Part shown: in pieces, positions 48,491 to 64,000 of the stretch
How positions within the stretch are numbered: the stretch's first letter is position 1
Layout of the letters: the number at the start of each line of letters is the position of its first letter
From: Daucus carota subsp. sativus
Taxonomy: Eukaryota; Streptophyta; Magnoliopsida; Apiales; Apiaceae
Length of the DNA stretch: 64,000 nt
Reading direction: 5' to 3'
Assembly (NCBI RefSeq): GCF_001625215.2
Contig: NC_030385.2
Span: 31,583,598 to 31,647,597, forward strand
Notes under the pieces: model-generated
Databases searched by the model: none
Told to the model about the DNA's origin: nothing
The model's input: only the letters and a program-made list of their open reading frames with translations
Program-made: the position numbers and the translations under genes

Positions 48491-49476
<986 letters not shown>

Positions 49477-49831
49477 ATATATATATATATATATATATAG
49501 GGTCGAGTTCCAGGGAGACCTCACATCTTGAGAGACCCTAGAGACCCTCTAACAGCCGTTGATTACATCAGTAGAAAGTGTATACACTCAAGGGCACGCT
49601 GGTCAGAAACCGTGACAAAATACAGGGCTAAAAACAAAATACGAATTTTATACGAATTCTAAAAAGGGAAGATTCTGAATTGATTATACACCAGCGTCAA
49701 TCATGCGATACTGTAATATTGGAAGGTTTGATTTCAGTTGACAACTACATTATTAGAACAAAACGAAAAAAAACTACAGACGCAGAAGAACTCTCCATAG
49801 AACCCTAGAAGAGACGACGACTGAAACAGGC
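49477..49831. other. TA tract and repeat-like sequence upstream of Ulp1-like copy A
   Basis: A (TA)11-like run (about 49477-49498) is followed by 'agggtcgagttccagggaga' and 'ctctaacagccgttgattac', wording typical of plant transposon ends. No matching inverted end was found downstream. The last ~100 bases are the probable leader of copy A. Confidence 0.5.
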
Positions 49832-52607
49832 ATGGATGAAAAAAGGTTCGTTCTATAAGACAATATTCTGCATACTGTTCCTTTTCATGACGACTTGTTT
49901 ATGGAACCCTAACTAGAATCGCTTATGTTACTTTTTCGTTTTTTCCAATGTACAGGCATGATCGATCGATTGTTAGATTTAGACCTTGTTTGCTTGCAGA
50001 CGTTTTGTCCTCTCTGACCCAGGATCAGAAATCATGGATTTGCTCGACGGGTTTTGGTTTTGTACTAAGTTTTGAACTGAAGGAGTATCCCCTTGAGATA
50101 TCCAGGTTCTTATTAATGGCATTTGAACCAAACCCCCCCTTGTTGAGGTTGGATGAAAGTACTTTTCCTGTAAACGAACAAGATGTTAGTGAGATTCTTG
50201 GTTTACCTATTGGTGAAACAGATGTTGATTTTGGTCTTTCAACCGATGCCATTAAAAGGTGGGCAATCTCTTATGGTCAGGTCGGAAATTGCTACAAGGT
50301 TACACCAGTTGACATTTGCAAAAAAATTGCTGCATGTGACACAGTCAATGAGCCATTTAAAATAAACTTCATATTGCTTCTGAGCAATGTATTTTTTGAG
50401 GGGTCATCCACTCCTTATATTAATACGCGAATGATTCAATTTAATGGTGATTTTGACAACTGCAAGAAATATAATTGGTGTAAGTATCTTATTCAGTGCT
50501 TACAGGAGCAATATGTTGTTTGGAATGAGAATAGGGAAAAAAGGTTCTTCAAAGGATCCCTCGTATTCCTGCTTGTGAGTAGTTTCTTGCAACTATTCCA
50601 TTAAAAGTTCCCCTTCTTTATTAGTTAAAATATCATTAATTTTTTTAACAATGTCTTTGCAGTTTTTTTCATTTGAGAGAGTACTTTTGCATTCTAACAA
50701 GCTTCCAATGGTTCAGCCATCTTTTAGAAGATGGCCAAGTGAAACAGTCTCTGTGATTACATTAGATTGTTTTAAAATTCAAGGCATCTCTCAAACAACA
50801 AATGATGTTCCAACTGATGATAAGGTATGTAATAAATTTCGAATTCTTAAATTCTTTCGAAAACTTGTTAAGTTTTTAAATTTAATTTTTATTACACATT
50901 ATTAGGTAAATCCTGCTGATGATATGGTTACGTCAATCATTCGCGGTGTTTGTAATGACATTAGGAAGGAATTTGATAATGATCTTGATGCAACACCTCA
51001 GGTGCTTTTAAATTCTTTTAAGGTTTTGTATTATTTTTTTTTTGAAATAGTGTTTGTTACCTGTATAATTTTTTTTTTTTGGTTGAATGAGGAATGTAGA
51101 TTCTGATTTCAAATTTAAAAGAGGCACTGGATGATTACAACTCAAAACAAGAAAAATGCATGAGGAACTTACTTTACATTTACGAGCAGTACCCTGGTAG
51201 TGATTCTATTGATGTAATGAAGAATAAATTCGTTAAAATAAATGAGAAGGCTACATGTTTCCTTTATAAGAATTTAGTTCGTGGACTTTTGAATGAAACA
51301 AAAACATCATCTGGAGATCTTGAGCCATTCAATGGAAAATTCAAAAAGCAGCCCACGATTCTATGGGATATCGTGAATTCTGAACAACATGACGACAAGT
51401 AAGAAAAATTTGAAATGCAGTCAATTCTAGATAGCACAGGATTTTTATGTGGCCTCCTCATTTTTTCTTTCATCTGTTTCAGTATGGTTTTTTTCAAATG
51501 GAGGTCTGTGTTTGCTTGCAAGATTGATTTCATGTCCCTGAATTTTGGAGAGATGGTACTGTCGTCAGTAATAGATGTCTGGAGCTGTGTATTGAATTTG
51601 CTTGTCCCAACTGCGGATAATTCTTCAGCAAGGAGGCTTTTTTGTTTCACACAGAACACAGTGAGTTTTTTTTCCATAAAAAGTGAAAAACAGTCATAAT
51701 GAACCTATTATACTTGTCATTTGGCTAATAGAAGATGACTTGAATTAATTTTAGATTGGTATCATAAATGCAACCAAACAAATACCATATGAGAGGATGA
51801 ATCAGGTTTTCGTGGAAAACATAGAAGATACAATGAGGCTTTATGATGTCCGTCTTGAGGATCTAAGCATGGTACTGGGAACTCTGCCTTTAAATTTGCT
51901 TTTGTAATGCAATTTTAAATTCACTGACTAGTTGAAATTTGTTTCATGTAGATTTTCTTTCCAATGATTGCATCGAACCATCATTATGTTGTTGTGTATG
52001 ATTTACGTTCGCCTAGCAGGGAAATTTTAGACAACAGAAGATCTGATAGAACATTACTTCAATTGTATGGTGATCAGATAGATGTCTTGGTAAACACTGA
52101 AACATTAATTCAAATTTTGTGAATCTATTTTAATACCACATTTAATTTTTTCATCTATTTGATGCTTCTATCTTTTTATATTCAGCATAAACACTTCACT
52201 ATGTTTCTGAACAAGAAGAAAGCTTCGAAAAGTATTGATTACTTTTCCATAGTGCCTGAACGTTTAGAGATGGAGTGGCAGACTGTTTACAATGATGTTG
52301 ATTGCGGTGTTTTCGTTATGCATCATATGGGGACGTATTTTGGTGGAGGTACTTCAAGTTGGGATGCTAAGATCAAAAAAGAAAGTGTATGTGTTGTGTT
52401 TTTTTTTTACCGAATTCGTTATTATGCATTTACCTTTTACTAATTGCTGGTATTTATAATAATTTGTTATGCACACAGTATGAACAAGTGATGCAGCTAA
52501 ATGATCTAAGGCAGGACATGTTGCACACAATACTGACTTCGAACAACAATGAGAAGTCTCGGGAACTGCACGAACTCTGCGTTACTTTCCATGGAGGGAA
52601 TTTTTGA
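49832..52607 (+). CDS. Ulp1-like protease copy A: plant N-terminal domain + C-terminal C48 protease
   Basis: Ten exons give 650 aa: 49832-49845, 49956-50574, 50663-50824, 50906-51001, 51100-51398, 51483-51660, 51755-51871, 51952-52089, 52186-52386 and 52479-52607. All introns are GT-AG and in phase. Exon 1 has only 14 coding bases (MDEK). Residues ~12-211 form a plant-specific domain with STGFGFVLSFEL, EQDVSEILGLPIGE and a YNWCKYLI segment, reminiscent of plant-mobile-domain/DUF1985-like regions. Residues ~400-608 form a Ulp1/C48 cysteine-protease fold with His505 (SNHHYV), Asp522 (EILDNR), Gln573 and Cys581 (VDCGVF). Such enzymes remove SUMO or related modifiers. Many plant relatives ride on Mutator-like transposons. 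Copy B lies tail-to-tail 0.6 kb away. Confidence 0.88.
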
Positions 52608-53209
52608 TGATAAAAATGGAATGTAGTACTATTATTTAAAACGCCTATTATCTAGCAGACCATTTCTTACTGTTAAGAATTAGACTCGCAAGATTTATTG
52701 CTTTAAGTTTTGATGTTTTCTGGATACTGATGTTTCTATTTTTAATAAATCTTTTCCATTGAATTCTAATTTAGTACAATTATTTTACAAACAAATAACG
52801 TTTTGGCAAATAGTTATAAGTTTATATCACGAATTCAGAAATAATATACTCACACATGTTTTTCGTTCATGAAAAAAAAAGCAATATGTTTTTCATTAAA
52901 AGATTAAATTGTCTCTTATATAGGAACATTTAATTTATTTGATACATGTCAAAGCAGTATCTTTCATCAGTTTAAAAGAAATCACTAAAACAGAACAAAA
53001 GTTTATGTTTGTATTCCTGCGAATAAATATTTTAATATATTAAATGTTGAAAACAAAATATAAGTAAAACATCTTTTTATTATATTAAACTCAGGAAATT
53101 CTTATAAGGAGCACACAGGAACACAAAAAAAAAAAGACGGCAAACCGGGAAATATGTCCATCAAAAACACTAAGAACAAAATACGCATGTTTTAAAATCC
53201 AGAAAGCTT
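52608..53209. other. Spacer between convergent Ulp1-like copies A and B
   Basis: AT-rich 3' flanks of both genes, with no recognised repeat or gene. Confidence 0.5.
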
Positions 53210-56200
53210 CTAAATCTTCTTCGGTTTCTGCATAGATGCACGAAGAACATCTTCATCGGGAACCAATGATGGGTCTTTCATCTCGTCCATTATCATGCCA
53301 AAACAACAATTGTTTCGGCTCGAAATCATATTGTATGTGTACAGAATCCGAAGCCTCCTTATCTGAACCTTTTGAGTATACTACAAATGAAAATATGGAA
53401 AGACGTTAGCTTTCGATATGTCAAGCCGAATTATCTTTTAAACTAACAAGTCATTCAGAAGATTACACTCTCAGGTGCAAATTTCGCATCCCAATTCCGT
53501 GATCCTCCTCCAAAGTATGTCTCCATGTGACGCATTGCAAAAACACCACAGTCTATCCCATTTTCTTTTGTTTGCCACCTCATCTTAAGGCGCTGAGGCA
53601 CAAGCTTCGATATATCACCAAACTTGTAATGATTCTGGGTTTGTAGATACTTCACAAAGTGTTTTTGCTGAGAATTTTGAAGACATGATTTCAGTGTGTG
53701 TCTGATTCTTGTAAAACAACATCTAAGAACACAAGAACAAAACAGTTTTAGGAAATTTTACCAGAACAATTAGTGGCTGACCATACAGATTCTTGATTGG
53801 TCGCTCCGAGGCTCTATTATCAAGGATGTCTATAGATGAATTCTTCAAGTTGTAACAGACAACATAGTAATGATTTACATGGTGAACTGGGAAGAAAACC
53901 TGTCAATTATACAACAATGATTTTTTTATCTTTCATAATAGAAGACAAAATTTGATAATGATAAAGACATGAAATATTACCAAATCATAATCATGTATTT
54001 TGGTCTTGTATGTTGCAAAAATATGATCCATGTTCTCTGCAAATGTTGTGAATTTTTTTTTTGTATGGATTCGTCTGTGAACCCATTCAGCGTTCCAACC
54101 TGAACATGTTTTTCTAGTTAAATTTTTACATGTTGATGAAATATAAATAAAAGAACCCGAAGGGAAAAGCGTAAACATACAGTTGTCTCTGTGTAACAGA
54201 ATAGTCGTCTTGGAGACGTTGGAGATCTTAGTTCTTCATAATAATTCAAATAGCAGCACCATACATCCAACGCTGAAGTCATTTTTATCTCACCTTCTTT
54301 CATTGACTGGAAGTCAATTTTATAACACATGATGTTCTGCCACTTGAACAAGACTCGACTGCATGGATAAAATAATAATAAATATCAACTCATACTTGGA
54401 ACCTTTTAATGAATAACACTAAGAACACTTACTTTGGGTACTGTTCATTTTTGTGAAGCCATTCCCAAAGTTCTGTTTCTTCTTTGCTGAAATTCTTTCC
54501 ATTTATATTTGTTATTCGGTCTATGTATGGTGATCTAAAGATATTAGCAATCTTTCTGTCTCTTTCTGGTTTCTGCATTGCAAGGCCAGGAACTCTACTC
54601 GAATCTGGATTTGGCTCTTGATTTTTGAACTCTTCTCCTAAGTCAAAGGTTGGGATTGTTGCATCCAAATTAACTTTAAAAAAGCGCCCATCACCTGGTG
54701 TCTTTAGATCGTTTGACAAACATTTCTCTTGTATACTTAGGAACTTTGATTGTGATTCCATACTCCTGAAGAGTTCTGACTTGTTTTCTTCGACCATGTC
54801 GTTCGTGGTAACCAAATTATCAGGACACACAGACTTCTTTGTAGTAAAATTGATGAGACCATCACCAGCATCAACCTTTTCATTCGATGAACCAGTATTT
54901 TCACGTCTCATACTCACATAGTTGAGAACTGAATTATTGAACAGAGTTTTATAGTTCTGTATATTCAGCTCCTTCTCAACAAACTCGTTTGCTTTGACTA
55001 TTAGATCAACAAATCTTTTCTGCAGCCCATCAACAAGATTATTGTTACTGAACAATTCTTTAGAAGACAAGAGATACATTATACACTTCCTTTGAATATT
55101 CTCGTATCCAACAATTGAATCTTCCAGTTCACTGAGGACATACTCAGGCACCTAGAAAAAAGAAACTTTACATAGTTATTCCCTGACCCTTTTACAAATG
55201 TATGATATTGTTATATTCGATTTTATCTTGTGCTTGAATTTTACCTTTTTCCCAAGAATTTTTTGTTCTCCTATTGATTGAACAAAGTTTCCTGTCAGAG
55301 TAACGCCAGCATCTTTCTGTATAAATATTACACAAAAAATTAATATCACATTGTGTCATCATGTAAAAATAAATAAATTATAACAGTGTGTGATTACCTC
55401 GTAATGTGCTTCACTAAGTTTTCCATCAGTTAATATTTCAAACTGGTTTAAATCTTTTCCAGCCTGTGATACGTTTGGAACACTGTTAAAAGAACCATGT
55501 TCATCATTCCTATCACATTGTACCTCGTCGTCATCCGATGATGCTGCTGAAACAATGTTCCATGTGTTGTCCTATTCATAAAATTTAAACATTTTTTATA
55601 TAATAACACATATTAATTCCTATAATATATTCAGATCAGTAAAACTGGTGTGCTAATAAAAACACCTCATAGCTGCTCTCATCATCCGAATGCTTGCTTC
55701 TCAGTGGTAACGCAACACGTCCATTGAAAAATGTCTTGAGGCTGCCTGTTGCGAGTTCTGAAATCTGTCTGTCAAGTATGAGGGAATCTGACCATCCTAC
55801 AAAAGTTGGTTTTTTACGCCTGACTTGACGTTTCCCATTTACAACTCGATCAACATAGAGATACTGTAAAAAAATAACAAATTACACGAAGTTCACAGTT
55901 TTGAATAAAAAGGATAATTAATTATTTCAGAATCAGAATTTTTATCATTAAAAAAGATTGAAAAAGATCTATGAGAAAAACTTACAACAAGCATTGGGAT
56001 AGACCCAGTGAAGTACTTGCTGTCTGGTTTTTCACTCCATGCCAGAATTGCATTTCTTAGGTTCTCAATCAAATAATCACACCAATTATAGCTGCTGCAA
56101 TTATCTAGATTGCCGGAAAAACCTAGTATGTTTTGCTTAACATAAGGATTTGTTGGTCCTTCAATAAGAACATTATACATCAACACCAGAAAATTCAGCT

Positions 56201-57294
56201 TAAACAATCTATCAGCTTCATTGGAATTTTTTATTGCATCGCAGACCATGTTCGCTGTCACTTTCCATCCATCCTTTACAAGTTCCTTAAACTGATCTCT
56301 CCATCTGTCCTCAATATGTGTACTACGTATTATTTGTACGTTCACCACCGAGAGGTAACCCAAGTACTTCATTTACATCTTCTTGTGTTATTGGTATAGT
56401 AATGTTACCGAACACCAGAGATGTTAAATTCACATCAAAACAAGAAGCCAAATCATAACATAATGCTTGTGGATACTGGTTCATTCTGAATGAAAGCAAA
56501 GAAGCAAAACCTGTGTTCTTGACCCATTTTTTTGGATCGGAGAAAGAGACCTGACAGCATCAACAAGAACTTTAGGCTGATACCTTACTAGTAACCAGTG
56601 TTCAAAATCTTTTTTGTTCCTTTTCCTCGTTCTAACAGTGATCATTGCAGATTTTTTTATTTGGTGTTTAGGAACCTAGAGAACAATACCAAAAAAAATA
56701 TATTTAAAATGTGAATCATATTCCTCAAAAACAAATAATTAATATATAGAAACTAGTACCTCAACAATTTTCCCCACTTCAACATATGTTTTTTCTTTCA
56801 TCACGTATTCCTGAAACTGTTCACCAACCAATCCATCTTTACATAATTCTTTTTGGTTCGAATATACTGGAATCAACTGTTTTTCCAATGAAGTGGATTT
56901 CAGTTGTGCGACTTCTTCTAGAGGTGTTACGATCCTAACTCTCTTTTTCGAAGGTGTAACACTGCTATTGACGTTGACAGGAATAGAAGTTTCATTATTC
57001 GCATTATTCTCTGTGTTGTTTCTTGTACGTTTTAGAATTGAACCTAATGAAGCACAAAAATAAGGCTTTTATCAGACTTTTTTTTGATTTTGAACTGTGG
57101 AAGAATAGATGTTATATCCAAAAAAAAAAAGAGATGCAACCTGAGAGAGAAAGTTTGTTCCCTTTAGATGGTGTGAATGCTGGTACCCGATTAACATTGT
57201 TGACTATAGTTGATAGAACTTCACGAGTTGCCGGGTATGGAGTTCCTCTAAATACCGGTGTCCTATGTACATTTTCTTTGTCATCGTTCACCAT
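53210..57294 (-). pseudogene. Ulp1-like copy B, disrupted by three single-base indels
   Basis: Twelve exons are recognisable on the minus strand: 57294-57141, 57043-56760, 56675-55986, 55863-55666, 55571-55398, 55316-55245, 55151-54433, 54358-54181, 54099-53981, 53899-53762, 53667-53467 and 53380-53210. Exons 8, 10 and 11 have exactly the lengths of exons 6, 8 and 9 of copy A (178, 138 and 201). A basic N-terminal extension (exons 1-2) precedes the plant-specific domain (exon 3), a long charged middle and a C-terminal protease fold that keeps His (VNHYYV), Asp (DILDNR), Gln and Cys (IDCGVF). Exon 3 lacks one base in an A7 run (56527-56533) and regains frame with an extra base near 56320-56345. 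Exon 9 lacks one base in an A10 run (54053-54062), leaving the catalytic exons out of frame. Either true decay or homopolymer sequence errors. Confidence 0.8.
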
Positions 57295-58466
57295 CTTCAA
57301 AAACTGGAAAAAAAAAAAAGAAGAAGAAATTACAGTAAAAGCACGTATAATATATTCTGGAAAATAGTTTTGATGCGAGGTAAACAAATACGACCTAATC
57401 AGCGCCACCAAACAGAGTTTTGGCCAAGTATTAGAGAAAACGTATCTTTGATTGTCTGAACAACGATGAAGAAATGAGAATAATTTTTTTTTCAAAATAT
57501 GAGTTACGGATGAAATCAATTAAGCGTTCTGAATATTACTAACAACCTTGATTAAAGGAGTGACATAAGGTTAGTTTGAATTTTTGTGTCATATTTATTA
57601 TGCATGCATCCTTATTTATAGCATGTTCTATTTTTTAAAATTTAGAACGTACACCTTGTGTTTAATAGACAATATCTTTTTGATACATTTTATGTTTCAA
57701 AAAAAAATGGAGTATTCTAAGGGAAATCAGTTAAAATATTCTCTAATAACACCAGAACAACTATTAGAGGAAACATGTTATTAGCTTGTATGTAGAATAA
57801 TATTATTTTTCTGATTGATAAAGTAATGGAAAGAGATGTATCCTTTTTTTGAACACTGTTTGGAACTCAAATAAATTTGAATTGTCTTAACACACATTTG
57901 TTCTCTGTATATAATGGGAAATTTTTATGTTATTTGTATGTGAAAAAAAATCAAGTTTTTTTGCTTTGTCTTTAATTTAAAAATCTTACTATTATGAGTT
58001 AGAACACTAATGAATATCGGTTACGTAACGTAAATTACCCAGAAATTTAATATTAAAAATTTTCGAAGCAATTATTTTTTTTCACAAAAACGTCACTATA
58101 TGTATTTGAGGTATGATATAAGGAAATGATGGAGACATAAACGAGATTTAATAAAAAATATTTAATTTGAGAGAATTACTATTAAAAATTAATGAATATA
58201 TTTAGTTATAGATTTTTATCATGGAATATGCTGTAAAAAGACTTCCTTGTGGATAGAACCTGACTTCTTGTGTGGTCGTTTTAATGTAATCGACTTATCA
58301 AAGAGTTCACAACACCAATCTAAAGAGATTCATATTACACGTCGAGTACAAGATCAAATTAAAAATGCAAAAGTCTACTGAAAATTAAATTAATCAAAAA
58401 TTATTGATAAAGACAAATAATTAGTCATTTACCTTTTTTGAAAATATGGGACTATTTCTTAGAACT

Positions 58467-59559
58467 AACCAAAACAAATTTTTTTTTATTTACATAATAT
58501 CTTAGATTTTTATAAAAAATGTTAGATCTTTATAATTTAACCATAATTTCTTTATTTATTTTTAAGAAAAATTCAAAATCCTAATAATTTTTCATATTAT
58601 TGAGATTGAAATTATGTACTGTTAATGATTATACTATTATGTTGTATAGTATTTTTCATAATATTTCAAATTTTGGTAGAAAAACTAGTAATCTTCGTTA
58701 TCATACCACAGTCTTGTAGTCTTTTTTCAATGCATTACAAACTTTTTTTTTATTAGGACTGTAATTCAGAAAGATGACATTAATACTCCTCGAAGGGGAA
58801 AAAAAAACCGAAATCAATGTTGTGTTCTACTTAGTTTTTTCAAACAAGTCGAATACATATGCAAATGTTTAATGAAAATTAAATCTTGAAAAAGGAAAAG
58901 TTTTAGTCAATTTTTATTTCCCTAAAACAAATCAAATCACAAATTTTTATTTTCATAATATCTTAGATCTTTATAATTTCCTATACTATTTTAATTACTT
59001 TTTAATAAATACTAAAAATCGTAATAATTTTACTCAAAAATTGAACTTAGGCATTGTTAACGATTATTTTTTTTTATGTTGTATAGTGTTTTCATAATAT
59101 TAAAAAATTTTAGGAGTCATTCTAGTAATCTTCCTTACCATATACTCCCTCTGTTTTTTAATATATGACGTTTGACTTTTTGGCACACACTTTTAAGTGC
59201 TTTGACCGGATAGTTAAAAATATTATTTTTGAATTTTTCTTTTTCTGAATAAAAATATACAATCAAAATTTTAATTCACAAAAAAATCAATCAAAAATAA
59301 TGATTTCTACTATCCGGTCAACCCACCTAAAGTTACGTGCCCAGGTCAAAAGTGTCATATAAAAAAAACAGAGGGAGTAACAGTCTTGTATTCTTTTTTA
59401 CAATGCATTGCAAGAGTGATATTTATTAGACCTGTTGTTCAAACAGATGACATTCACACTCCTCATTTATTGCTGAATAATGGATACATCGGTACGGTTA
59501 ATAGTGGAAAAAAAAAACGAATTCAGTTTTGTGTTCTACTTTATTTCTTACAAGTTGTG
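58467..59559. repeat. Tandem duplication upstream of copy C
   Basis: Unit 1 (58467-58851) and unit 2 (58921-59559) share 'cataatatcttagat', 'ttatgttgtatagt', 'acagtcttgta', 'caatgcatt' and 'tgtgttctactt' in the same order. Unit 2 is longer because it carries the MITE at 59145-59377. Without it both units are about 385-405 bases. Confidence 0.88.
59145..59377. mobile_element. Stowaway-like MITE inserted in the second duplicate unit
   Basis: The inverted ends are CTCCCTCTGTTTTTTAATAT and the complement of ATAAAAAAAACAGAGGGAG, flanked by TA (59143-59144 and 59378-59379). The duplicate unit at about 58705-58715 shows the uninterrupted site. Confidence 0.92.
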
Positions 59560-59625
59560 TTGTCTTTCTTAGAATCCCTAAAAGAACTTTACCAAACCTG
59601 ACCAAAGCATAGTTGGGAGCAAAAA

Positions 59626-62600
59626 ATGGCGAGGAACTTGCGTTCGTCCAAGGCTATTGATATAGGTATAATATCATCCCAATCTAATATTCTACTTAGA
59701 TTAGGGTTTATTCTTTGTATATCTTACTAGTTTCGATCTGTTTCAGCTTGTCCATTTGACCCAGAGAAGCTTAATGATGATCAAGCTGAGCAATATTTAA
59801 GGTAACGAGCTTATAATGTTTACACCACCAATCCATTACTCTAACAAAAGTTCTCACATTCTTCAAATTTGTTCATTATTTATAGGCGTTTATGGATATT
59901 AATGGGGAAAGAGAAAGCAAAACACTGTCTGTATATAGATCCCCTTGTCATCAAAGATTACTATGACAACAGAAAGGGCAGGGATAAAGTGTTAAGTTGT
60001 ATGCTAAAAAATAAGTTTTTTGAGAAGAGATACATTTTCTTCCCAATATGCTTGTGGTAAAGCTGAAATATTTATTCTAATTGACAATGATTATTTAGTA
60101 CTCTGTATTTTATAAGAAATTCGTAAAATGTATGGATTTTCAGGAATCACTGGGTTTTAATGGTTTTTTGCAACCCGTGTAATGATTTTGAAGTAGAGAT
60201 CGAAAAACCGGCTCTTATTCTCCTAGATTCACTAAAGGATTCTGTGAAAAAAGATGTTATAGAGTTCATCCATGGGTAATGCTTCATTATGATTTTTGTT
60301 GTTTTTTTATATATGGTTTTAATCAGTGTGTGATGTTTGTATCGTGTTTTGGTTTGTTACAATTTAGGATGTTGGTATCTCTTTACAAACTTGCAAATAT
60401 AAACTTTTCTCCGACAACTGTGAAGAACATTCCTGTATTAATCCCAGAGGTATCTTAAATTAACAGATCAGGTCATTTTTATATTTAAAATGAGAAAGAA
60501 ACTAACTGTACCAAAAAATGTTATGCAGGTTCCGAAACAAAATGATGCTAAAAGTTGTGGTTTCTTTGTGTTGTTTTATGCAACCATGTTCTTAAAGATG
60601 TGTCCACCAGTGTTCTGCACGAAAGAGCACTATCCTAGTTTTGTAAGACTTTTATGCATTTACTTTTGTTTTTTCCTATAGCATCGGTTTCCATAACTTA
60701 TTCATGTTATTCTATTTTAGATGACAAAGAATTGGTTTTCTACCAAACAAATCAAGGATTTCCGCAAATCAATTCTCGGCATCTTTTCACACATATGTAT
60801 GGTTTTGGTCTATAAGCAAAAATCATTCCTTTTTTCTGTTTGGAAACCTGTTTCACTGTTTTGATACACAGACTGTTTTTGTCTTGTTGTAGCCATGTTT
60901 GATTGCTCATCAACTGAAGACTATACCATCAAGAAATCCAAAGCAGATGTTGAAATAGACATGGTTATAGAGTCACTTCGTAGCAATTGTCAGTGTCTCA
61001 TAATATTTTTTAATTTTAGTGATTCATTTTTCATTGTTAAATATTTCCTAATTGTTTATACTCCAGTATAAATATTTAACAATATCCTTTTTATGTAGCT
61101 TGTTCTGTTCATTACAATACTGAGGAAACAAGTAAAAAACGGAAGTTGGGGCAAAAAAGTAAAGATCTAGTCGTTGAGGTTTGTAATCAATTTTTGTATA
61201 TGTGTAAAATGAAGTTACCTGTATTGTTTATATACTGACATCAATTAAAAAACAGAAACAGATTCCTGATGTTAAGAAGAAAAAGAAACTTTCAACCGAA
61301 GGTCCTGAGAAAGAAGAGATCGAGCTAGAAGCAGAGAAAAACGCAGATCAAGAACATAAGATCTTGATTAAGATAAGTCCTTCGCTGTTCACCAACTTGG
61401 TTAAGAATTTAACTGAATCTCAAAGAGAATGGGTGATTAGTACAGGTTTTGGATGTATTCTTGATTTCAATCTTACTAGTTATCCAAAATATCTAGGATA
61501 CAGCCTTGTTAACAGTTTTGTTTCTAATGATTGTTCAATTGTATTGGACAAGAGGACAATAAAAATCACTGATAAAGATGTTCATCGTATTCTTGGTCTC
61601 CCACTCGGGACAATCCCTGTACCTTTTGTTAACAGCAAACAACTTTCTAAAGAATGGAGGAAGCAGTTTAAAAACACTGACAAAGCTTTCAGGGTTGGCG
61701 TGAAAGATGTATTGGATGCCATAAAGGATTCTACGAGGGTTGATGTGAATTTCAAGAAAAATTTCATCCTCGTTCTTATCTGTTTTTTAATCCAGCCATC
61801 ATCAAACTCTTACATTAGGCAGAATTTCCTGGGTATTTGTTGTGATCTTGACAAGTGTTTTCAGTATAATTGGTGCCAGCTTGTTGTTAGCTACTTGAAA
61901 GAATCCTCAAAAGTTTGGCTACGGAACACAGAAACAAGGTTCTACACAGGGTCGTTGTCTTTCTTGCTGGTATGTTTGTTACCGTATTAATTTTAAACCA
62001 TTTTATGTTTTTGAAAAAATTTTCGTTAAAAACTCTCTTACATGCAAAAAATTTCCACAGTATTTGTTTCTGGATACCTTCATTGGAAGAAGGGCTTTCC
62101 CAACAATTCCAAGCCCCAGATATGTTTCATGGAACTGCTACAATTTGGATGTTCTTGAGGAAATCATGATTCAAAAAAATTGCATACAAAATGGGGAGCT
62201 GAGTATTCCTGAGATTGACTATTCTGCACTGCAAGGCTGCCAGAGAAAGGTCTTAGAATAAATTATTATATAATGTTTTTGTATTGGTTAATAAACGTCT
62301 CTTTAATTTTTTTTACGTTATATTTAAACTCATCACGAAAACACTTTTTCTGAATCTCTGCAGTGCTTGACTGATCCCATCGAGCATGAAGATGATGACA
62401 GTAGCATCATACCAGAGGTGAAAAACGTTTGTTACCGCATGTACTCTCAAAATAATTTCAAGGACATATTTTTTTTTATATTTTTTTGCCTTATACTTAT
62501 ATGAATGTTATTTTTTTCAAACATCTGTCTTTATTTTCTATTTTTAAGAAGGACAAAGAAATTAATTCTTCTTCAAGGGAGCATTTGGGTGAACCAGAGA

Positions 62601-63168
62601 TGGACAATATCACAAAGGTTTTTGTCCATAAACTATTATTGTCACAAATACGGTTATCATCTTTTTTTAGATGACTCCATTGCTCTAATTTTCAGGACCC
62701 AAGTGTCAAGGACACTGTTGAGAACAAGTGCGAAGCAAGTTCTGAAAGACATAATCATCAGGTTCCTACTAGATAATTCACTTATGTCCTTTCCGAAAAA
62801 TTCTCAACACTGCCTTATTTCTGTACAATAAAAAATTCTCAACACTGCAATATTTCAACTTGTAGTATTGCTAAATAATCTTTAAAACACTATTAAAAGA
62901 TAACATTGAATGTGATATAACTAAAAATGGTAAGTATAGGTAATCAATGTTTTATTTGGATTATTAATCAACTTTCAAATTTGATTTGTTTTATATACAG
63001 GGGAATCTAATTGTGTTGGAATCTCTGTTAGAGTCATACAAGAGACTTCAACAAACGTTCATGCTACAGATGTCATGTCTAAAGAATGAAATGATAGAAG
63101 ACGAAAATGTTGAACGTATAAGGAGAGCTTTCATCAACATGAATGACACTGCAAATATGTCACTGTAA
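59626..63168 (+). CDS. Ulp1-like protease copy C: N-terminal C48 protease + plant-specific domain (reversed order)
   Basis: Fifteen exons give 701 aa: 59626-59665, 59747-59801, 59886-60056, 60144-60275, 60368-60449, 60529-60642, 60721-60796, 60893-60988, 61099-61178, 61256-61969, 62061-62249, 62364-62417, 62549-62617, 62696-62761 and 63001-63168. All introns are GT-AG and in phase. Residues ~15-240 form a Ulp1/C48 fold with His91 (WNHWVLMV), Asp117 (LILLDS), Gln164 and Cys170 (KSCGFF), closer to ordinary ESD4/SENP-type proteases than to the protease half of A and B. A Lys-rich linker with two likely nuclear signals (SKKRKLGQK, KKKKKL) follows. Residues ~318-583 are the plant-specific domain of A and B (STGFGCILDF, DVHRILGLPLG, YNWCQLVV). 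A charged tail and a possible coiled coil (~647-701) end the protein. Confidence 0.87.
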
Positions 63169-64000
63169 TAGATCAGTTTTTCTCTTATCATCAAAATTTG
63201 GCGTGGAATGTGAAGGAGTGTATTGATGTTATTAATCTGGCCTATCGATATGAACAGGCATTATTTCTTTTGGTTTTTTATTAACCAAATCGAATTACAA
63301 GATGGTTCTGTGTTGCAGGGACGGCCAAAAATCAGATTGCCCCTTTTTGAAGTCATTTTACTCGTCAAATGTTGTTATTTTTAGTTTGTTTGTTCAAGAA
63401 CAACACGCTGATGAATTTACTGAACACCCAGAAGAATATTTGTATAAGGAAAAAACGATATAATGTTGTTTTTTAACATTTTTGAATGTGTTTTTGTATT
63501 GGATATAAGTGATTTTTGAATCTTTGTATAATTGATTTTTGTTAGATGTTCTTCGAGGCTTTTATAGAGATAAAAAAAAACTGACTATTGGACTACCCCC
63601 AGGATTTGCCCACAACTTTCTCCACGCATTTAATACATGCATGTATTGGGTTGTTTTTTTTTTTTTAAAATGTTGCACTATTCATTTTAATTTTTTTACT
63701 AATTATAACTCATTTTTATCACAAATAATGAATACAAAAAGTCTATTTTTTTAAATTAGGAGTATCTTTGAAATAGATTTACATCAGAATACGTAAGAGA
63801 ACACTAGAGTAAAATCAAACTGACAAGATTTTAAGACCATTCTGGGTTTTTTCCTATATAGAAGTTATTATGGCTACAATGCCTACAGCCTCTATTTTAT
63901 TCTCTTATTTGAAATGTATCTTGTGATAGTCCATTATAATACTAAATACTTACCATATAATAAATAAAGAAGATCAAAAGTCAATTCTAAATTTATCTTT
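63169..64000. other. 3' flank of copy C to window end
   Basis: AT-rich. A short stretch at about 63320-63465 containing 'tgttgcagggacggccaaaa' is less AT-rich but encodes nothing recognisable. No gene seen up to the edge. Confidence 0.5.

Follow-up and report, generated by a model that had tools for sequence, protein, structure and literature searches.

Ulp1 domains have been described in MULE transposons of Arabidopsis (Kaonashi), melon, rice and grapevine; Jittery-like MULEs and CACTA elements have been found to carry them too (PMC2528002, PMC13317346; here and below, the literature is cited from excerpts of the sources). A review describes the KIU genes as VANC genes with an Ulp1 domain, the role of which in MULEs it gives as unknown (excerpt of PMC13317346). 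In the excerpt of PMC5735166, DUF1985 is a domain of VANC, the proteins by which VANDAL MULEs counter silencing in a sequence-specific manner. Fusions of plant mobile domains with protease domains have been noted (PMC7156037), and one paper, PMC5821449, contains both DUF1985 and Ulp1. Within the open-licence literature we found no published account that places a C48 protease in front of DUF1985, none with C48 proteases on both sides of it, and none that names DUF1985 together with peptidase C48. MULE-borne Ulp1 genes (KIU, VANC relatives) have precedents; the reversed order and the two-protease form reported here are apparently unreported.

We analysed a stretch of 64,000 nucleotides of the carrot genome (Daucus carota subsp. 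sativus, NC_030385.2; C5:31583598-31647597), referred to as the window, whose coordinates are used below unless a contig is named; the assembly searched comprises 441 Mb in 11 contigs. Three neighbouring genes, A, B and C, are considered. As in the KIU genes of Arabidopsis KI-MULEs, a C48 protease is carried by a MULE, and A and B, where a DUF1985-like domain is followed by C48, fit the KIU picture if its order is taken to be the one they show. Unlike KIU, the protease of C precedes the DUF1985-like domain and belongs to another subtype; and unlike KI-MULEs, described as non-TIR MULEs in the excerpts of PMC13317346 and PMC2528002, the element here is bounded by terminal repeats and carries a FAR1-type transposase. 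C resembles VANC of VANDAL transposons in that a DUF1985-like domain is found in a MULE accessory gene, and differs from it in that C adds a protease, in that its DUF1985 match lies below the cut-off and in that its DNA binding and anti-silencing are putative. The ULP domain lies outside the MuDR/VANDAL group, as in the Jittery-like ULP MULEs of melon (excerpted via PMC2528002), here with a FAR1/MULE/SWIM transposase, but unlike those MULEs as excerpted, the element is about 45 kb long, with several protease genes and two domain orders. Finally, the best PDB matches of the C protease are SUMO proteases of the ULP2/SENP6-7 kind, as is the carrot gene L069 discussed below; unlike these, C's protease is fused to a DUF1985-like domain and is transposon-borne. 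We consider it very probable that C is a MULE accessory gene of A/B descent to which a SENP7/ULP2-like protease was added in front and from which the rear one was lost.

Domain order in genes A, B and C

Gene C (59626-63168, plus strand) was rebuilt from the sequence as a model of 15 exons, 2106 nt and 701 residues, in which all introns are GT-AG and all exon junctions are in phase. Its product consists, in this order, of a C48 protease, a basic linker, a DUF1985-like domain and a short coil. The protease lies in exons 2-7 (59747-60796, plus strand), as given by the PF02902 (Peptidase_C48) match in Pfam over residues 67-201 (E=9.9e-14, 52.1 bits against a cut-off of 20.7) and by a complete catalytic set: His91 (60148-60150), Asp117 (60226-60228), Gln164 (60538-60540) and Cys170 (60556-60558), all on the plus strand. 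The linker (60893-61354, plus strand) contains the basic stretches KKRK and KKKKK; the DUF1985-like domain (61355-61969, plus strand) precedes the last exon (63001-63168, plus strand), which is homologous to the coil between the DUF1985-like domain and the protease in A and B. The exon end "...FLL" that closes the DUF1985-like domain is common to A and C. The initial annotation had described C in these terms, with the protease first and the plant-specific domain second, fifteen exons in phase, all four catalytic residues and a shared FLL junction, and the rebuilt model and the Pfam matches bear it out on each of these points.

Gene A (49832-52607, plus strand; 10 exons, 650 residues) gives an intact model with the DUF1985-like domain first, then a coil, then a C-terminal C48 protease (E=5.2e-5). 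Gene B (53200-57294, approximate bounds, minus strand) has the same domain order; its DUF1985-like exon is broken in the window by frame-breaking indels and is still open in a copy elsewhere in the genome. The earlier assignment of this order to both neighbours stands, with an intact model for A but a frame-broken B.

On sequence similarity, the plant-specific domain of the three genes seems best called DUF1985-like. In the whole C protein the DUF1985 (PF09331) match is weak (Pfam, residues 380-496, E=0.0089); scanned alone, the domain reaches E=4.8e-4 and 20.6 bits, below the curated cut-off of 35.1 bits, which counts against our explanation of C. Fourteen of the 19 domain copies scanned matched DUF1985 and 5 of the 19 matched the plant mobile domain (E<=1), the best value being 4.8e-4. 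Structure prediction of the DUF1985-like part, for two sequences from the window, gave a mean pLDDT of only 34.7.

A genome search with C returned at least 85 exon matches, and the best 30 DUF1985-like loci were extracted together with 1.5 kb on either side. By an exon-anchored count, 27 of these 30 loci, the window's own included, have a front protease upstream on the same strand, and all four catalytic residues are present in 25 of the 27, the exceptions being L018, with only Gln and Cys in reach, and L022, in which the Asp stretch is degraded. Three loci are without a front protease in the cut (L010, L016 and L021). For L010, front-protease exons are found at C7:24340452-24341375, upstream on the same strand and beyond the 1.5 kb flank; for L016, where the cut reaches late exons only, they are found at C4:10971662-10972448, again upstream on the same strand; the distance in these two cases is 12-15 kb. 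L021 starts within the DUF1985-like domain. A copy at C5:16.13 Mb has all 15 exons of C open, and copies of 62-66% identity retain most of its exon boundaries, while at least six of the copies examined (L012, L013, L015, L016, L019 and L020) are broken by stops, frame breaks or lost exons. Thus, C is no lone fusion: order, exon boundaries and catalytic set recur genome-wide, more than chance would give, and the earlier statement that the order is not a gene-model artefact is upheld.

Constraint was estimated by the Nei-Gojobori method between C of the window and the copies of 62-66% identity, exons of unequal length being left out. In the protease (exons 3-7), dN/dS is 0.15-0.16 in five copies and 0.11 in L018 (63 codons); in the DUF1985-like exons it is 0.26-0.32 in five copies and 0.21 in L017 (63 codons). 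The linker (exons 8-9) gives 0.88-1.40 and the tail of C 0.47-0.56. Close copies, which differ by few changes, give mixed values (protease 0.08 and 0.61, DUF1985-like 0.96 and 0.63), and we count the values of 0.61-0.96, together with the broken copies, against our explanation. Over the longer term, these estimates indicate that protease and DUF1985-like domain are both constrained and that the linker is not. Short exons and a linker evolving freely would suit a reading in which two adjacent genes, one for the protease and one for the DUF1985 domain, had been misread as one. This is very improbable, since all 15 exons of C are in phase, all 15 recur in a second intact copy, the spacing is similarly close at most of the 27 loci, and no gap resembling a stop or terminator is needed between the halves; we rejected it on this evidence and treat C as one gene.

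A MULE transposon carrying the three genes

A single MULE of about 45 kb carries A, B and C, as well as one more C-like gene at window coordinates of about 87.7-91.3 kb. Its part in the window (49500-64000, no strand assigned) is continued beyond the window to a right end at window coordinate 94910 (C5:31678507). A second copy lies on the same contig at C5:16.12-16.16 Mb, in collinear pieces 95-99% identical to window coordinates 49480-94925; it measures about 37 kb versus about 45 kb, the window copy having extra stretches and repeats in between. The two copies share their start and end sequences, which lie inside (TA)n runs, and the bases beyond them differ. The ends form a degenerate terminal inverted repeat: the 75-base ends score 33, a value reached by none of 1000 shuffles (maximum 14), and a cruder local comparison is borderline (25 versus a maximum of 23 in 200 shuffles). 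Near the right end, on the minus strand, are transposase exons with FAR1 (8e-18), MULE (3.8e-21) and SWIM (6e-5) matches, the transposase being identified from these domain-bearing exons rather than from a full gene model. Jittery elements carry FAR1-like transposases. By coordinates, the order A (plus), B (minus), C (plus) is found in at least 12 clusters, that of the window among them, on seven contigs.

Could A, B and C instead be a cluster of host genes? The genes are intact and constrained; the target-site duplication, about 9 bases in FAR1-type MULEs, is unreadable where both copies sit in (TA)n; and the left end of both copies adjoins a similar repeat of about 0.5 kb, in opposite orientation, all of which would suit such a cluster. 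We nevertheless regard it as very improbable and rejected it, given that both ends are common to two copies whose flanks otherwise differ, that terminal repeats and MULE transposase exons are present, and that the A-B-C cluster recurs as described. The initial annotation, right in excluding an artefact and as to the subtype and origin of the C protease (see below), missed that A, B and C belong to one mobile element, as it missed the recurrence of the order at 27 of 30 loci, the descent from an A/B-type gene with loss of the rear protease, and the two-protease relative.

Several other features of the element and its surroundings were observed. About 233 bases upstream of C (59145-59377) are missing from the copy at C5:16.13 Mb; the ends of this stretch resemble those of a Stowaway-type MITE. 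Between about 64.0 and 77.5 kb (L039 and L040), a partly duplicated region of the element contains a number of small, mutually related coiled-coil ORFs, the one scanned giving sub-threshold Pfam matches only. An RNase H-like ORF (RVT_3, 3.4e-11) is found within the element at 79158-79688 (L040:5158-5688), and an open frame of 261 residues that has no Pfam match at 84002-84784 (L041:2-784). The latter is flanked by two identical 77-residue open frames (81.6 and 86.2 kb), suggesting a terminal or direct repeat. To the left of the element, a long (AT)n run (48917-49050) adjoins another repeat, whose inverted arms span 49025-49106 and 49418-49499.

Origin of the front protease and the change of order

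Against the PDB, the C protease matches SENP7 at 5.5e-10 and SENP1/2 at 0.21 or worse, and a six-copy profile matches SENP7 at 4.4e-14 and Ulp2 at 3.2e-4; with the protease of A, no PDB chain was matched at E<=10. Within a small set of 16 sequences, for which the E-values hold, C scores 141 bits against L069 (C7:39.814 Mb; 35% identity, E=4.9e-46) and 20 bits against the protease of A (E=0.40). L069 is apparently a standalone ULP-type gene, ending soon after the protease in the 1.9 kb read, and itself matches SENP7 and Ulp2. L069 and C have in common five inferred intron positions (phases 2, 2, 2, 0, 0) and two exon lengths (82 and 114), and, by eye, none of the introns in C's protease matches those of A's protease. 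A tree joining the C proteases with that of A is rejected (p=0.029, for groups named after the first tree had been seen). Together, these comparisons indicate that C's protease is SENP7/ULP2-like, of another subtype than A's and of separate origin, and the different subtype and independent recruitment proposed in the initial annotation are both sustained. L069 may be an ancestral host gene or may itself derive from an element of this kind. A second L069-like gene, L070 (G000:C2:50133501-50135400), agrees with L069 in its early protease exons; the 1.9 kb read did not show the exon with Gln and Cys.

The same data bear on circular permutation, in which tandem duplication and fusion of an A/B-type gene would have placed the old rear protease before DUF1985. 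Permutation is a usual way of inverting a domain order, and tandem C-like genes are present in the element. A permuted C should then carry a protease of A's kind, but it is L069 that C resembles in score and in introns, and the tree that permutation calls for is the one rejected above. We hold this route to be most improbable and have rejected it as well.

An addition in front and a loss at the rear fit the tail of C. Its last exon aligns ungapped over about 50 residues with the coil that separates the DUF1985-like domain from the protease in A and B; shuffled sequences did as well in 2 of 2000 cases against A and in 17 of 2000 against B, and for the tail of the 65% copies in 4 of 2000 and 0 of 2000, respectively. 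Against the coil of the second family described next, the C tail was not significant (459 of 2000 shuffles as good), a point against our explanation. Given the homology to the A/B coil, C looks like an A/B-type gene ending where the rear protease began, with one protease gained in front and the other lost.

Among the matches listed, 10 DUF1985-like loci with 36-38% identity to C form a second, diverged family. A C-type protease exon lies upstream in at least 8 of the 10 and an A-type exon downstream in at least 8; at least 6 have both, on one strand and within about 5 to 8.5 kb. This two-protease family is known from coordinates and from two partial reads, one of the front and one of the rear. 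The front read, L068 (C9:32.607 Mb), shows a protease with His, Asp, Gln and Cys followed by the DUF1985-like domain. In the rear read, L071 (C9:38.852 Mb), the protease scores 110 bits against that of A (16-sequence set) and keeps His and Asp, with Ser for Cys and Arg for Gln. The family is a possible intermediate in the change of order. In trees, its front protease groups with L069 (99/99), and a tree uniting it with C to the exclusion of L069 is rejected (p=0.017); its DUF1985-like domain takes no supported position (68/28), and neither a union with A nor one with B is rejected. Capture of a front protease may thus have occurred once or twice.

The course of events would then be as follows. 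The ancestor would have been a gene of the A/B kind, in which a DUF1985-like domain and a coil precede a Kaonashi-type protease at the C-terminus. A SENP7/ULP2-like enzyme of the L069 class would have been inserted in front, introns included. The rear protease would subsequently have gone missing after the coil in C, the second family retaining both.

A possible role of C in SUMO removal

SENP7 and Ulp2 act on SUMO chains. By its DUF1985-like half, C would be kept at the DNA of its own element, where the protease half would remove SUMO, possibly as chains, from silencing proteins; the element would thereby escape silencing. A joint action of the two halves would fit the constraint estimated for both. 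From the sequence we infer a single transcript of C as well as its substrate, its DNA binding and its anti-silencing effect. This reading of C as a targeted deSUMOylase, which couples DNA holding with SUMO removal, is put forward tentatively, at slightly less than even chances; the explanation as a whole, taking anatomy, origin and likely work together, we regard as probable.

The same anatomy could also serve another use, the protease acting on another ubiquitin-like protein, on proteins of the element or in host stress signalling, instead of on silencing factors. The KIU proteases of Arabidopsis are judged unlikely to act on SUMO (excerpt of PMC6117577), which favours such a use and speaks against the deSUMOylase reading, although the protease of C is of another type. 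Its likeness to SENP7 and Ulp2 rather than to SENP1/2, and its distance from a DEN1-like protein (28 bits, 16-sequence set), argue the other way, and a different use seems unlikely, if far less so than the alternatives rejected above.

A turnover of enzymes may also be envisaged, a conjecture we hold more loosely than the targeted deSUMOylase itself. A SENP7/ULP2-type deSUMOylase captured in front would have superseded the Kaonashi-type rear enzyme, possibly on more than one occasion; a two-protease family with a dead rear enzyme would have survived, and C would have dropped its rear one. Were this true, SUMO removal would be indispensable to the element, no matter which enzyme provides it. 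C48 proteases of two origins at opposite ends of one domain come close to a natural replacement experiment, to which a possible intermediate with a catalytically depleted old enzyme adds, and this suggests that what the element needs is the enzymatic activity itself. With an intact gene and Cys170, C offers a handle on SUMO removal versus silencing. Elsewhere in the assembly, an open frame with a C48 protease is found at L003 (G000:C7:39.202 Mb), where the protease looks like the NEDD8 protease DEN1/SENP8; L001 is similar.
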